In this document: piece after piece, positions 6,773 through 12,617 of the stretch
How positions within the stretch are numbered: the first letter of the stretch is position 1
Layout: each line of letters opens with the position of its first letter
From: Hyphomicrobiales bacterium
GTDB lineage: Bacteria; Pseudomonadota; Alphaproteobacteria; Rhizobiales; Aestuariivirgaceae
DNA length: 64,000 nt
Assembly: GCA_025359045.1 (NCBI GenBank)
Contig: JANYHN010000062.1
Coordinates: 1 to 64,000 of the forward strand
Reading direction: 5' to 3'
The notes under the pieces: generated by a model
What the model was told of the DNA's origin: nothing
The model's input: the letters and a program-made list of their open reading frames with translations, nothing else
Databases searched by the model: none
Position numbers and translations under genes: made by a program

Positions 6773-7969
6773 TCAAGCCCGCTCCATCATCCCCACAAAC
6801 CTTTTGAACAGGTAATGCGAATCTTGCGGCCCCGGGCTTGCCTCGGGGTGGTGCTGCACGCTGAATACAGGTTTGCCTTCTAGGGCTATGCCGCAGTTGC
6901 TGCCGTCAAACAGGCTCACATGGGTTTCGACCACGCCTTTGGGCAAGCTCTTACGGTCCACCGCAAAGCCGTGGTTCATCGATACGATTTCGACTTTGTT
7001 GGTGGTGTAGTCTTTCACCGGATGATTGGCGCCGTGGTGGCCTTGGTGCATTTTTAGGGTTTTGGCGCCCAATGCAAGTGCTAGCATTTGGTGGCCAAGG
7101 CAAATCCCAAAAATGGGTTTGCCGGAATCGACTAACGCGCGGATTTCTGTAACGGCATATTCGCCTGTGGCGGCAGGGTCGCCCGGGCCGTTCGATAGGA
7201 AAATGCCATCGGGCTTCATGGCCAGAATATCAGCGGCTTTAGCGGTGGCGGGAACCACGGTCACTTTACAACCTGCCGAGGTGAGGCAGCGCAGAATGTT
7301 GCGCTTCATGCCATAGTCAATGGCCACCACGTTAAACTTGCCTTCGCCATGGGTGTATCCGGTTTCCCAATCCCACAACTTCTCATCCCAGCTCATACGC
7401 TGGGTGAGGGAAACATCCTTGGCCAGATCAAGCCCTTCAAGGCCGCCCCAAGCTTTGGCCATGGCGGTGAGTTTCTTGATATCGAATTTGCCCTTGGCAT
7501 TATGGGCGATAACACCATTGGGCATGCCTTTTTCGCGGATCAGATTAGTAAGCTCACGCGTATCAACGCCGGACAAGCCGATGATGCCGCGCGATTTCAG
7601 CCATTTGTCGAAATGGTTTTTGGCGCGGTAATTTGCAGGTTCGGTGATGGGCGCTTTGACGATGCAGCCTTTGACCGCAGCTGATGCGGCGAGGTTTGTG
7701 GTTTCGCCGTCTTCATCATTGGTGCCCACATTGCCGATATGGGGGAATGTGAAGGTAACAATCTGGCCAGCATAGGAAGGATCAGTGAGCACTTCCTGAT
7801 AACCCGTCATGGCCGTGTTGAAGCACACTTCCGCCACCGCCTCGCCTTCTGCGCCAAAACCATAACCTTCTATCACCGTTCCATCGGCCAGAACCAGAAC
7901 GGCTGTGATCTTGGCAACATCCCAGTCACTGAAATGGGGGCGTGGCTTGGCCTTGGCTTTAACGGGCAT
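6773..7969 (-). CDS. carA: carbamoyl-phosphate synthase small chain
   Basis: The glutaminase subunit of carbamoyl phosphate synthase, which supplies ammonia to CarB for arginine and pyrimidine synthesis. The N-terminal CPSase domain contains CFNTAMTGYQEVLTDPSYAG and FTFPHIGNVGTNDED. The C-terminal class I amidotransferase domain has the nucleophile in GICLGHQ (near residue 290) and the His-Glu pair in VQHHPEASPGP. At 398 residues it has normal length, with a short basic N-terminal extension (KAKAKPRP). It diverges from the yqeY-like gene at 8078; carB is not in the window. Confidence 0.97.
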   Translation of the reverse strand: MPVKAKAKPRPHFSDWDVAKITAVLVLADGTVIEGYGFGAEGEAVAEVCFNTAMTGYQEVLTDPSYAGQIVTFTFPHIGNVGTNDEDGETTNLAASAAVKGCIVKAPITEPANYRAKNHFDKWLKSRGIIGLSGVDTRELTNLIREKGMPNGVIAHNAKGKFDIKKLTAMAKAWGGLEGLDLAKDVSLTQRMSWDEKLWDWETGYTHGEGKFNVVAIDYGMKRNILRCLTSAGCKVTVVPATAKAADILAMKPDGIFLSNGPGDPAATGEYAVTEIRALVDSGKPIFGICLGHQMLALALGAKTLKMHQGHHGANHPVKDYTTNKVEIVSMNHGFAVDRKSLPKGVVETHVSLFDGSNCGIALEGKPVFSVQHHPEASPGPQDSHYLFKRFVGMMERA

Positions 7970-8639: not shown

Positions 8640-8987
8640 ATGACCAGATTTACAACAACCAAAAAATTACTTTTATCACTTGTCACGGCAGCGACTATTG
8701 GTGCTGGGCTCATTGCCAGTGCAACAACTGCCGAAGCGCACCACATTCGTCATTATGGTGGTTTTCCAGGTGCTGGCATAGGTTTCTTCTTTGGCTCGCC
8801 AGGCTTTTACAACAATGGTTATTACGGCAACGGTTATTACAATAACGGGTATTATAATGATGGCTATTATGGTGGCTATCCCCATTTCCGTCACGCCTAT
8901 CGCAGCTGCCACATTGGCAAAATCCGTTATCACCACAGAATGCACAAAGCCCGGATTTGCAACGGCCAAGTTACACGGATTTACTGA
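8640..8987 (+). CDS. secreted Gly/Tyr/Asn-rich small protein
   Basis: A 115-residue protein with a Sec signal peptide (KKLLLSLVTAATIGAGLIAS, cleavage near ATTAEA-HH). The mature part has a low-complexity centre made of repeated NNGYYGNGYY-type units and a conserved-looking tail, SCHIGKIRYHHRMHKARICN plus GQVTRIY. The same tail ends the next gene (HRAKVCNGHVTRIY). The two cysteines are shared, so a disulfide is likely. Function unknown; the Gly-Tyr-rich centre suggests a surface or periplasmic structural role. GGAG precedes the ATG. Confidence 0.7.
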   Translation: MTRFTTTKKLLLSLVTAATIGAGLIASATTAEAHHIRHYGGFPGAGIGFFFGSPGFYNNGYYGNGYYNNGYYNDGYYGGYPHFRHAYRSCHIGKIRYHHRMHKARICNGQVTRIY

Positions 8988-9115
8988 ACTTTAACGCTGA
9001 GTCAGAGCGGTCAGGATATTTGACTTTTCTGCAAAAAGTCAAAACGTTCATATAACGACGGAATCCAAATCTTTGCCCGTCCTAGATCTGGGGCATGTTA
9101 TTGGAGACTAAAACT

Positions 9116-9373
9116 ATGCGAAAAATATTCTTATGTGCGGCAGCTTCAGTTGCCTTAATTGCAAGTGTTGCTGCAAATGTTACCAGTGCAGAAGCGAGAC
9201 ACGCTCACGGTCATGGCAGGTTTGTGGTGCATTTCGGTGGTCCGGTATTTCCGGCCTATCGCCACCACTATTTTCGTCCCGTTTTTTTGAGATGTCATAC
9301 TCAAAATATTATCTGGCGACATCACTTGCACCGCGCTAAAGTTTGCAATGGGCACGTAACACGGATCTACTAA
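9116..9373 (+). CDS. secreted small protein, paralogue of the 8640 gene
   Basis: An 85-residue protein with a signal peptide (RKIFLCAAASVALIASVAAN, cleavage near TSAEA) and a His-rich mature part (RHAHGHGRF, PAYRHHYF). Its tail, CHTQNIIWRHHLHRAKVCNG followed by HVTRIY, aligns with the tail of the upstream protein. The Gly-Tyr repeat block is missing. The start is at ATG 9116 with TTGGAG upstream. The pair arose by duplication. The histidines could bind metal, but that is only suggested by composition. Confidence 0.68.
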   Translation: MRKIFLCAAASVALIASVAANVTSAEARHAHGHGRFVVHFGGPVFPAYRHHYFRPVFLRCHTQNIIWRHHLHRAKVCNGHVTRIY

Positions 9374-9871: not shown

Positions 9872-9900
9872 TAAGGGCCACTTCAACGAAGCGGCCCTTA
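9872..9900 (-). terminator. intrinsic terminator after the 24-codon gene
   Basis: On the minus strand TAAGGGCC and GGCCCTTA form the base of a long stem (9893-9900 with 9872-9879), extended inward by GAAG/CTTC pairs with one mismatch. U-rich sequence (TTATTTG) follows. It lies between the small gene at 9937-10011 and ohr, so it ends the small transcript or attenuates ohr. Confidence 0.85.
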
Positions 9901-9936
9901 CCGTGAGAAACCAGGTTTCTACACGAATGCGATTGG

Positions 9937-10011
9937 TTAGAGGGAAGCTGTTCCCGCAGATCCAATGATCCGCACTGCGATAGAACCTGTATTGTTGAAC
10001 TCACTCGACAT
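9937..10011 (-). CDS. 24-residue small protein or leader peptide with extreme SD
   Basis: The frame runs from ATG 10011 to TAA 9937-9939 and starts MSSEFNNTGSIAVRIIG, ending SAGTASL. The support is upstream: GAAAGGAGGTGATCC (10027-10013) is complementary over 15 bases to the 3' end of 16S rRNA, with GGAGG seven bases from the ATG. A promoter-like pair lies 20-30 bases further up and an intrinsic terminator 37 bases after the stop. This defines a compact transcript of about 170 nt. The peptide has no run of one amino acid as in amino-acid leader peptides, and I recognise no family. It may be a functional small protein, an ohr leader or a ribosome-binding RNA. Confidence 0.6.
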   Translation of the reverse strand: MSSEFNNTGSIAVRIIGSAGTASL

Positions 10012-10012
10012 G

Positions 10013-10077
10013 GGATCACCTCCTTTCAGTTGTTAACGACAAGCCAAACCTAGCTCTTGCGCGATTTTTTGCAAGAG
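10013..10077 (-). promoter_or_regulatory. promoter, inverted repeat and hyper-strong SD of the 24-codon gene
   Basis: Read on the minus strand: CTTGCA (10075-10070), a 17-base spacer and TAGGTT (10052-10047) form a plausible -35/-10 pair. CTCTTGC/GCAAGAG (10054-10060 and 10071-10077) is an inverted repeat across the spacer and may be an operator. The Shine-Dalgarno at 10027-10013 pairs with 15 contiguous bases of the anti-SD end of 16S rRNA. Confidence 0.55.
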
Positions 10078-10109: not shown

Positions 10110-11759
10110 ATGCCACACGCTGATCTGATTATCACCAACGCCCGCATTATCACGATGAACAAGGCGCAGCCCTTTGCGGAAAGTTTGGCCGTGGCTGGCA
10201 ATAGGATTATCGCCATTGGAAGCCATGAAGATGTGGCGGGATTTAAAGCCAAACACACGCGGATGATTGATGCCCAGGGCAAATCGGTGATTCCGGGAAT
10301 CATCGAAGGCCACGTGCATTTGTTTGGCGGAGCGGCTGAACTTGGCGGCTTAATGGTGAGCCATGTCAAGAGCTTGGCTGAATTTCATGATTCAGTTTCT
10401 CAATACCGCAAAGCCCACCCCGAAGAGAAAATTGTGATCGCACATGGGATTGCTCATGAAAGCTTAGGCAAGGATGGCCCGATCACGCGGCAGATGCTTG
10501 ACCGCATTGTTCCGGACATGCCGTTTTATGTAAATTGTTTTGACCACCACACCGCTTGGGCCAATACCAAGGCGCTGGAAGCGGCTAGCATTATGCGTGG
10601 GCGCGAGCTTCCCGTGGGCAATGAAATTGTCCTTGATTCTGAGGGCAACGCCACCGGTGAACTCAAAGAGCCAGCAGCTTATATGCCTGTGCAAGAATTA
10701 GGATCCACAGGGGGGCGCGAGTTCTTGGGCATGAATACTGGCGGTGACCCCGTTCCACCTGCAACGCCAAGCCAGCGCGCCAGTGATCAAGCGCTTCTGA
10801 AAAAGGGCATAGCGTTTGCCAATTCACTGGGCATTACGACGATGCATAATATGGATGGCAATTGGTATCAGCTGCAGCTGCTCAAAAATATTTTGGACCA
10901 AGGCGAACTTAACGCCCGCATGGAAATTCCGTTTCACCAGAAAAATTATTTTGAAATTGCCCGTGTTGATGAAGCCGCTGAAATGCACGCGCAATACAAG
11001 GGTGACATGCTGCATTCTGGCCGCGTGAAGATTTTCATGGACGGCGTGATGGAAACGCTGACCGCTTTGATGCTGGATGACTATCCGGGCTATCCCGGAA
11101 ATACCGGTGCGCCTCTGTTTACCGCCGCACAATTTAATGAACTGGCCACGCGCATTGATAAACACAAACTGCAAATCAGCGTGCATGCGATCGGAGACGG
11201 CGCAGTACGCAGAACATTGGATGGTTATGAAGTGGCTCAGAAAGCCAATGGGGTTCGAGACTCGCGCCACCGTATTGAACATATTGAATTGATCGATCCG
11301 AGTGATATTCCGCGCATTAAACAATTGGGTGTGATCGCTTCACTTCAACCCGTTGCCGGTGTGGGCGTGCCGTGGATGCCAAAGGAGCCAATTCTCACGC
11401 GGCTTGGCAATAAGTTGGCCTTGTCATATCCGTGGCAAACCATCCGTGAATCTGGCGCCACTGTTGCGTTTTCCTCTGATTGGCCCGTGGCCCCGCTTGA
11501 TCCATTCTTAGGTTTCAAAGCCGCCATGACAGCCGATCATTTTGGCCAGAATCAGAGTTTGATGGACACGTTGCATGGCTTCACGGCGGCGGGCGCGATC
11601 ATGGATTTCACCGAGGATCGCAAGGGCATGTTGAAGGTGGGCTATCTGGCGGATATTGCGGTTTTGAATTCCGATTTAGAGCGCACGGCGGCTGAGGAGA
11701 TGGACCGGGTTAAGCCTGTGATGACGGTGTGTGATGGACGGGTGGTTTGGGAGGCCTAG
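10110..11759 (+). CDS. amidohydrolase family protein (YtcJ-like)
   Basis: A 549-residue metal-dependent hydrolase of the amidohydrolase superfamily. The N-terminal composite domain (ADLIITNARIITMNKAQPFA) leads to the HxH metal motif in PGIIEGHVHLFGG. Later barrel motifs are QISVHAIGDGAVRRTLDGYE, RHRIEHIELI and FSSDWPVAPLDPF; the C-terminus returns to the beta-sandwich (GYLADIAVLNSD). YtcJ-like enzymes hydrolyse amides or esters, and substrates are rarely known. No Tat or Sec signal is visible, so it is probably cytoplasmic. Its TAG stop shares CTAG with the stop of the convergent DUF5615 pseudogene. Confidence 0.88.
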   Translation: MPHADLIITNARIITMNKAQPFAESLAVAGNRIIAIGSHEDVAGFKAKHTRMIDAQGKSVIPGIIEGHVHLFGGAAELGGLMVSHVKSLAEFHDSVSQYRKAHPEEKIVIAHGIAHESLGKDGPITRQMLDRIVPDMPFYVNCFDHHTAWANTKALEAASIMRGRELPVGNEIVLDSEGNATGELKEPAAYMPVQELGSTGGREFLGMNTGGDPVPPATPSQRASDQALLKKGIAFANSLGITTMHNMDGNWYQLQLLKNILDQGELNARMEIPFHQKNYFEIARVDEAAEMHAQYKGDMLHSGRVKIFMDGVMETLTALMLDDYPGYPGNTGAPLFTAAQFNELATRIDKHKLQISVHAIGDGAVRRTLDGYEVAQKANGVRDSRHRIEHIELIDPSDIPRIKQLGVIASLQPVAGVGVPWMPKEPILTRLGNKLALSYPWQTIRESGATVAFSSDWPVAPLDPFLGFKAAMTADHFGQNQSLMDTLHGFTAAGAIMDFTEDRKGMLKVGYLADIAVLNSDLERTAAEEMDRVKPVMTVCDGRVVWEA

Positions 11760-12092
11760 CGATCAATTACCAATAATGCACTTTCTTCATCCTTTAAAAA
11801 TGCAGCAATTTTTCGGGTATTACGTCGAATAATAGTTTCCAACATTGTCGTACTGCAATTACCACAGCGCAACCAAATTGTCTTTGGGTGAGGACCAAAA
11901 ATAAAGCTCATCTGATGAAAATCAGAGTCTTTTGAGATGATTGAAAACCCATTGTCCCGCGCATAATTCCAAATTGCACGATCATTCTTTGCGGCCATAC
12001 CAAGGGTTTTGACATGAAGTGAATTTGGAAAAATATCTGAAAGCGATATTAAAATGCGTGTTGGAAGGTTTTGGACAAAACAGCAGCTTCAC
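11756..12092 (-). pseudogene. DUF5615 (PIN-like) toxin, frameshifted
   Basis: The intact distal frame, AAKNDRAIWNYARDNGFSII then SKDSDFHQM and WLRCGNCSTTMLETIIRRNT, is a DUF5615 PIN-like domain. Upstream, the same frame continues unannotated as QNLPTRILISLSDIFPNSLH and VKTLGM but has no start codon. A GTG at 12092, right after the antitoxin stop, opens MKLLF in another frame. Removing one base from the A4 run at 12077-12080 joins the two. The restored protein would read MKLLFVQNL where the family has a catalytic Asp (LLFDQNL), so it may be inactive even if the frameshift is a read error. Confidence 0.75.
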
Positions 12093-12314
12093 TCAAGCCG
12101 CACCAACCAGCCGCCGCTCACGGTCAGCTGCAAACACCAAACAATTACGAACGTCATCCGAATTCAATTCAGGAAAATCCGCAATGATCTCAGCTTCAGA
12201 CATGCCCGAAGCAAGATATTCCAAAACATCATAGACCGTGATCCGCGTATCCCGGATGCAAGGCTTGCCAGAACGACGGGCGGGATCGATGGTGATAGAT
12301 GTTGTACTCGACAT
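12093..12314 (-). CDS. DUF433 antitoxin
   Basis: A 73-residue DUF433 protein: ITIDPARRSGKPCIRDTRIT, then VYDVLEYLASGMSEAEIIAD and FPELNSDDVRNCLVFAADRE. DUF433 is an MNT/HTH-like domain normally encoded just before a DUF5615 toxin, as here, with the toxin GTG touching its stop codon. The start is placed at ATG 12314 (MSSTTSI); a longer frame reaches 12395 but has no family similarity. The partner toxin is frameshifted. Confidence 0.85.
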   Translation of the reverse strand: MSSTTSITIDPARRSGKPCIRDTRITVYDVLEYLASGMSEAEIIADFPELNSDDVRNCLVFAADRERRLVGAA

Positions 12315-12617
12315 GATTGGATTATGCGGCAAAGATCGGTGGCCGTCAAATCGCCAACCACTTTGCGAAAGTGGTAGTTCGCTGTGTAATGACATAGGGT
12401 TTCAGAAAAAGATAGAAGCTGAAATTTAAACGTTCAATGGAACGATTATCCGAGTTGCAGCAAAGGGAGAGTATAGTTGATGTTGTGGTTTTTGATCTGG
12501 AGTTAAACCACATGGGAATGGGCACTATTGTAGATTGAGGCTACTCAGCCGGAATTGGTATCGCGTGCTATTCGAAAAAATCTGTTTCGTTTGTGCCCGA
12601 AGCTTGAAAGCTCTTGC

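Follow-up and report, generated by a model that had tools for sequence, protein, structure and literature searches.

What does a short, sealed transcription unit do with a ribosome-binding site that can pair with the 3' tail of 16S rRNA over 15 nt? Such a unit lies on the minus strand of the window, by which we mean the whole 64,000-nt stretch of the Hyphomicrobiales contig JANYHN010000062.1 that we analyzed. An earlier note on this DNA had described an extended Shine-Dalgarno (SD) sequence, a short ORF, a promoter and a terminator within one sealed unit. We confirmed this observation (Table 1). Both the 15-base anti-SD match placed before ATG 10011 and the U-tailed hairpin taken to be the unit's own terminator can be read directly. 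The terminator scan is to be taken with caution, as it found one site against a mean of 0.9 in shuffles; a terminator-like hairpin is present in 193 of 199 family copies. The transcript probably starts near 10040-10035. A plasmid or phage origin was rejected, blastn against plasmid and phage collections being without match.

Table 1. Features of the unit and its immediate surroundings, in window coordinates.
Feature	Position	Strand	Basis
Whole transcription unit	10040-9870	-	Direct reading: sigma-70-like promoter, SD complementary to the 16S 3' tail over 15 nt, 24-codon ORF, terminator
-35 element CTTGCA	10075-10070	-	Direct reading; aligns with CTTGAC of relatives
-10 element TAGGTT, 17 nt from -35	10052-10047	-	Direct reading; columns of alignment A1
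Inverted repeat CTCTTGC...GCAAGAG over -35, operator-like in the genus	10054..10077		Direct reading; relatives
RNA body, end-to-end match to RF01867 (CC2171) positions 1-159	9874..10035	-	Covariance model
Extended SD GAAAGGAGGTGATCC, complement of the 16S rRNA 3' tail	10027-10013	-	Direct reading, uniqueness, relatives, duplex energy
24-codon ORF MSSEFNNTGSIAVRIIGSAGTASL, ATG (10011)...TAA	10011-9937	-	ORF list; in-frame stop conserved, peptide not
Helix P1, 5' arm GUGAG = codons 3-5	10000..10004	-	Pairing tests, predicted fold
Helix P1, 3' arm CUCAC, adjoins terminator stem	9907-9903	-	Direct reading, pairing tests, fold
Intrinsic terminator, U-tailed, 15-pair stem, loop of 3	9902-9870	-	Hairpin scan; family copies
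ohr, TIGR03561 at 164 bits	9841-9419	-	Profile match; start 28 nt past terminator stem
Divergent amidohydrolase-like gene	10110-11759	+	Only sub-cut-off amidohydrolase model matches, among the matches listed

The promoter and the overlapping inverted repeat that the earlier note had claimed were likewise found, though a sigma-70 scan of the window did not list CTTGCA-17-TAGGTT. The promoter is supported by the conservation of CTTGAC or CTTGCA ~49 nt upstream of the SD in most genus and family copies. In the 25-row alignment A1, the column holding the A of TAGGTT is invariant and the one holding its final T nearly so. As for the repeat, CTTG-N12-CAAG sits at a constant place over the -35 element in 15 of 20 genus and family copies (window, loci L007-L039) and in 0 of 156 elsewhere, which suggests a lineage-specific regulator; its frequency in shuffles is 0.4%. 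CTTG-N12-CAAG is perhaps an operator.

A gathering-level Rfam scan of the window returned tRNA only. The Caulobacter sRNA family RF01867 (CC2171), a connection absent from the first reading, exceeded its cut-off in 5 of the 18 relative loci scanned, each time at the homologous unit (Methylobacterium, Bosea, an uncultured Caulobacterales, Brevundimonas and a Rhizobium MAG), and among the matches listed these five have the same SD, start and ORF. The window unit matches the model from position 1 to 159 of 159 at 38 bits (E 1e-6 when 351 bases are searched, E 2.2e-6 against the whole genome) and does not reach the gathering threshold of 75 bits. Because it has about half the gathering score, we regard it as a divergent homologue and not as a formal Rfam member; homology itself is well supported and very likely. 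Length, a 5' CAACAA-GAAAGGAGGUGAUCC-RUG, a terminator and a closing helix from the ORF start to the pre-terminator segment are common to both. The helix is CAUUGUC/GACAAUG in the model and GUGAG/CUCAC in the window.

Landt 2008 is said to be the source paper for CC2171. The Rfam 15 paper names RF01867 in a table (PMC11701678), and a list of Mesorhizobium huakuii sRNAs gives MH_s33 with RF01867 and RNA-seq coordinates (PMC5596092); as far as that table and that list go, neither source discusses the ORF, the pairing with the 16S tail or the occurrence across the class. The excerpts returned by our literature search provide RF01867 with its Rfam name and describe no function, ORF or 16S-tail match. 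One further RNA family came up in the relatives, a Whalefall-1 RNA (RF01762, 44 bits) at 7753-7804 of locus L123 from Inquilinus limosus.

How widely is the unit distributed? The nucleotide search across relatives that the earlier note had proposed found it by BLAST in 30 of 61 genomes; the genus accounts for 25 (of 37, own included) and the rest of the order for 5 (of 24). The motif AAAGGAGGTGATCNNRTGTC, with at most one mismatch, was detected in 155 of 297 order genomes, where its reversed control matched 1, and in 94 of 385 class genomes. In a phylum sample it was present in 51 of 86 Alphaproteobacteria and in 8 of 213 other genomes, none of these 8 being exact. One and the same one-mismatch form, CAAGGAGGTGATCTGATGTC, recurs in four genomes of other classes (G774, G732, G741 and G798), where it may be an unrelated gene start. 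An exact motif scan of named contigs gave at least 117 stretches, and the 80 titles among the matches listed cover Rhizobiales, Rhodobacterales, Sphingomonadales, Acetobacterales, Caulobacterales, Azospirillum, other Alphaproteobacteria and a few "Proteobacteria" MAGs.

The RF01867 model matched 85 of 385 class genomes, 13 of them over the cut-off, and it picked out Caulobacter vibrioides among 14 control genomes. At E 0.1 it matched 5 of 14 control genomes, one of them over the cut-off. Nine of 19 inspected weak matches have no SD within 3 mismatches and appear to be terminator only; 85 of 385 therefore overstates membership. Conversely, 13 genomes over the cut-off against 94 with the motif suggests that the Rfam cut-off misses most members. 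Within the genus, 12 of 37 genomes gave no copy by BLAST, a looser pattern or the Rfam model, and none of the 10 pattern matches and 3 weak model matches in these genomes had an SD, a start and the unit. One of these genomes is 100% complete in 4 contigs. The unit is thus dispensable in the genomes of the genus that have no copy.

The counts on 176 copies below come from a set of 199 units that remained once duplicates (L001, L209, L061, L032-L038) were dropped; 6 units without a clear terminator were then removed, and the rest were reduced to 176 distinct copies. BLAST contributed 23 of these, the motif scans 20 (order) and 105 (genome contigs), and the Rfam model 28. The set may include a few non-members, 125 of its 176 copies came via a motif that demands the SD and RTG, and its copies are related, so that counts are not independent. 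Some further loci were inspected and left out of the counts.

The body of the RNA is predicted to form an arch. In helix P1, codons 3-5 pair with a motif that adjoins the terminator, and the two strands vary together: CAUUGUC/GACAAUG, CAUGGUU/GACCAUG, GUGAG/CUCAC (the window), GAAAG/CUUUC, CAUGAAU/AUUCAUG, CAUCG/CGAUG and others. RNAalifold on a mixed alignment returned little beyond the terminator and a small SD hairpin because the middle of the RNA is unalignable; we therefore compared the pairing of each copy with its own partner and with swapped partners. At a fixed rule, P1 forms in 120 of 176 copies (56 are without it) against 11% of swapped partners. Counted on distinct 5' strands it forms in 18 of 49 (31 without), whereas 5000 permutations averaged 6.7 and never exceeded 16. 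Its helix score reached z 5.7, and control regions going further into the RNA scored 4.6, 2.9, 0.2 and -0.4. We read the 4.6 and 2.9 as a second helix, P2. At a score of at least 14, P2 is found in 96 of 120 copies versus 42% of swapped partners (12 of 17 versus 28% in the genus), and in 21 of 120 copies the own partner scores among the best 5% when ranked with swapped partners; P2 is only moderately supported. As judged from the paired strands, P1 is kept by compensatory changes across the family.

An sRNA acting in trans would have its 3' part regulate mRNAs, and heavy ribosome loading at its 5' end would only set its stability or switch it off. The unit is free-standing with its own terminator, Rfam catalogues the family as an sRNA, and known sRNAs such as Spot 42 and SgrS have short ORFs, all of which would fit. 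However, the arch is kept by compensatory change and not as a fixed seed, and among the alignments and matches listed no segment other than the SD with the start codon and the terminator is conserved across orders. We consider a trans-acting sRNA unlikely, although it is the alternative that survives best, ahead of a sponge for anti-SD sRNAs, a peptide gene and an ohr attenuator, in this order.

Is the length of the SD meaningful? We took as pairing partner the 16S tail of S. meliloti, GGCUGGAUCACCUCCUUUCU (PMC6943124), standing in for the host's own. The 13-mer AAAGGAGGTGATC occurs a single time in the 3.18 Mb assembly, so the match is not a matter of chance. The duplex with the S. meliloti tail has a predicted energy of -28.8 kcal/mol, whereas the 69 window ORFs with 150 codons or more, scored from their best starts, have a median of -8.9 and a best value of -15.8 kcal/mol. 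In some relatives the complement reaches 17 nt. Variants point in the same direction: 37 of 44 listed rows with a single change in the 13-mer (order and class scans; rows of related genomes are not independent, and start or second-codon mismatches, 4 order-scan and 5 class-scan rows, are left out) keep a standard or G-U pair with 16S rRNA, and 7 break one. All 37 pairing-preserving changes are A to G; by chance, 6 of 39 single changes or 6 of 13 transitions would preserve pairing. The best 30 copies found with the RNA model either retain the 14 bases GAAAGGAGGTGATC or differ from them only in G-U-compatible ways, and ATG or GTG follows; four weaker copies have TTG. The SD has most likely been selected for pairing with 16S rRNA.

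GGAGG is predicted to be only partly unpaired (median 0.33, window 0.39). An internal SD partner of at least 7 nt is found in 0 of 20 copies of the window group, in 2 of 36 MSS, 2 of 48 MSHC/MSHR and 1 of 28 MSHG copies; the Rhodobacterales type has one in 13 of 19 copies and the "other" group in 9 of 25. In these last two groups the SD may therefore be paired in part within its own RNA, and the internal anti-SD may be a lineage-specific lock on the SD. The L130 RNA contains an internal 11-nt mimic of the 16S tail, GGATCACCTCC, as if able to lock its own SD. We rejected intramolecular pairing as the cause of the SD length since it is seen in some lineages only.

The same conservation bears on whether the unit could be a sponge for regulatory sRNAs with anti-SD (CCUCC) loops, as alphaproteobacterial anti-SD sRNAs have them; Caulobacter SisA-D are reported to carry an anti-SD signature (PMC12559287). 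Loops of this kind would find a partner in the conserved GGAGG core. Yet conservation goes beyond the CCUCC loop and spans UGAUCC and GAAA with 16S-compatible wobbles, and a sponge would need neither a start codon nor a stop. This makes a sponge improbable.

We then consider the reading frame. In 173 of 176 copies the frame runs into its first stop 14-27 codons after the start. A stop in this interval is found in 32 and 27 of 176 copies in frames +1 and +2, and in 24% of shuffles. The effect holds in the 51 copies found by BLAST or the RNA model (51 in frame versus 6 and 5 in the other frames). The peptide behaves differently: pN/pS was 1.08 when computed over 447 equal-length pairs and 0.93 when 55 disjoint nearest pairs were used, values that give no sign of purifying selection on the peptide, and differences per codon position 1, 2 and 3 were 0.20, 0.21 and 0.17, a test limited by related copies and by RNA pairing, neither of which alone yields the frame effect. 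Because the in-frame stop is kept while pN/pS is about 1, translation and not the peptide looks conserved. We conclude that the ORF is probably translated and the peptide unimportant.

The earlier note had proposed a small-protein gene and had asked whether peptide or structure is conserved. The compensatory changes in P1 speak for the structure, and pN/pS speaks against the peptide. A gene whose product is the peptide could explain why start codon, frame and stop are kept and why, among the matches listed, starts with MSS or MSH recur. It would not explain why codon positions 1 and 2 differ as often as position 3, nor why compensatory base changes alter amino acids, and we regard it as a shade more improbable than the sponge.

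A leader that couples ribosome occupancy to read-through into ohr, also raised by the earlier note and in line with the 28-nt spacing in the window and with ohr directly following in the nearest relative (L003), is very improbable, and we rejected it because the genes that follow the unit vary from one relative to another: of 30 loci (own included), 4 have an ohr-like ORF in the ~1.5 kb downstream and 2 have it directly after the unit, and the nearest downstream ORFs of 112 class-wide loci, crudely called, fall into 84 clusters, the largest of 6. These ORFs are on the same strand in 54 loci and on the opposite strand in 58, and the divergent amidohydrolase-like gene is present in 16 of the 30 loci. 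In the predicted fold of the window RNA, P1 adjoins the terminator stem without overlapping it and both form together, so P1 does not appear as an antiterminator competing with the terminator.

We favor the idea that the product of the unit is a structured sRNA which is translated and exerts its effect by engaging 30S subunits, either as a decoy or as a ribosome-availability sensor of free 30S, and we give this reading a probability of roughly 45%. The 16S complement, the start codon, the early in-frame stop and the arch are kept class-wide, which fits brief translation after 30S capture. According to this model, the host would transcribe an autonomous, mRNA-like structured RNA of ~165 nt, whose 5' end would present the 15-nt complement of the 16S tail with the start codon at once behind it. 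The remainder would fold as the arch, codons 3-5 being paired with the motif next to the terminator hairpin. The extended SD would capture a 30S subunit in vivo, and the captured subunit would either stay docked before the closed arch or open it, translate 14-27 codons and leave. Selection would keep capture and translation, not the peptide, and the likely physiological role would be binding or sensing free 30S, as a decoy or a ribosome-availability switch, though the RNA may instead use ribosomes to open the arch to some other end.

Parts of this reading differ in strength. The sequences themselves establish the homology, the SD, the ORF, the arch and the autonomy of the unit. That the unit acts through 30S engagement is plausible, with the odds somewhat against it. 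More tentative still, and on balance unlikely, is a class-wide "ribosome-engaging" sRNA, in which the full 16S-tail complement with the start codon would be the only class-conserved segment, translation would be required, the peptide would be irrelevant and the RNA would sense or buffer free 30S. A ribosome-titrating RNA, as in the first reading, is possible.

Known systems share some of these features. Spot 42/SpfP and SgrS/SgrT are dual-function structured sRNAs with a short translated frame; here, too, a structured sRNA has a short frame, but the frame is conserved and the peptide is not. Extended SD starts in Staphylococcus aureus likewise pair past the core towards the start codon, but they are described as general to many mRNA starts (PMC13009471), whereas here a single autonomous RNA combines a 15-17-nt match with an arch over the ORF. 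The trpL/peTrpL leader-peptide attenuators likewise have a strong start, a short ORF and a terminator; unlike them, the window unit has no conserved downstream gene and no antiterminator was seen, P1 only being examined. With its conserved complement to the 16S tail, its obligatory frame and its neutral peptide, a family known by its Rfam name becomes a testable example of an sRNA that would act via translation or 30S holding. Such RNAs span a large bacterial class, including genetically tractable hosts such as Caulobacter.

Several neighbors of the unit deserve mention. An ArfB-like ribosome-rescue hydrolase adjoins it downstream in L076, L089, L098, L101 and L140 and upstream in L113; the L140 copy matches NF006718 at 190 bits, the others were assigned by cluster, and one of the loci is from Hyphomonadaceae. 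This ribosome-related neighbor is perhaps there by chance. In Rhodobacterales, a queuosine-precursor transporter is kept upstream, which gave no functional lead. Near the unit in the window, two short ORFs on the minus strand, at 11756-11998 and at 12093-12395, resemble by eye a DUF5615/DUF433 toxin-antitoxin pair. On the plus strand, 8640-8987 and 9095-9373 encode two related small His-rich proteins of the same cluster, which by eye have signal-peptide-like starts and which end alike, in NGQVTRIY and NGHVTRIY.
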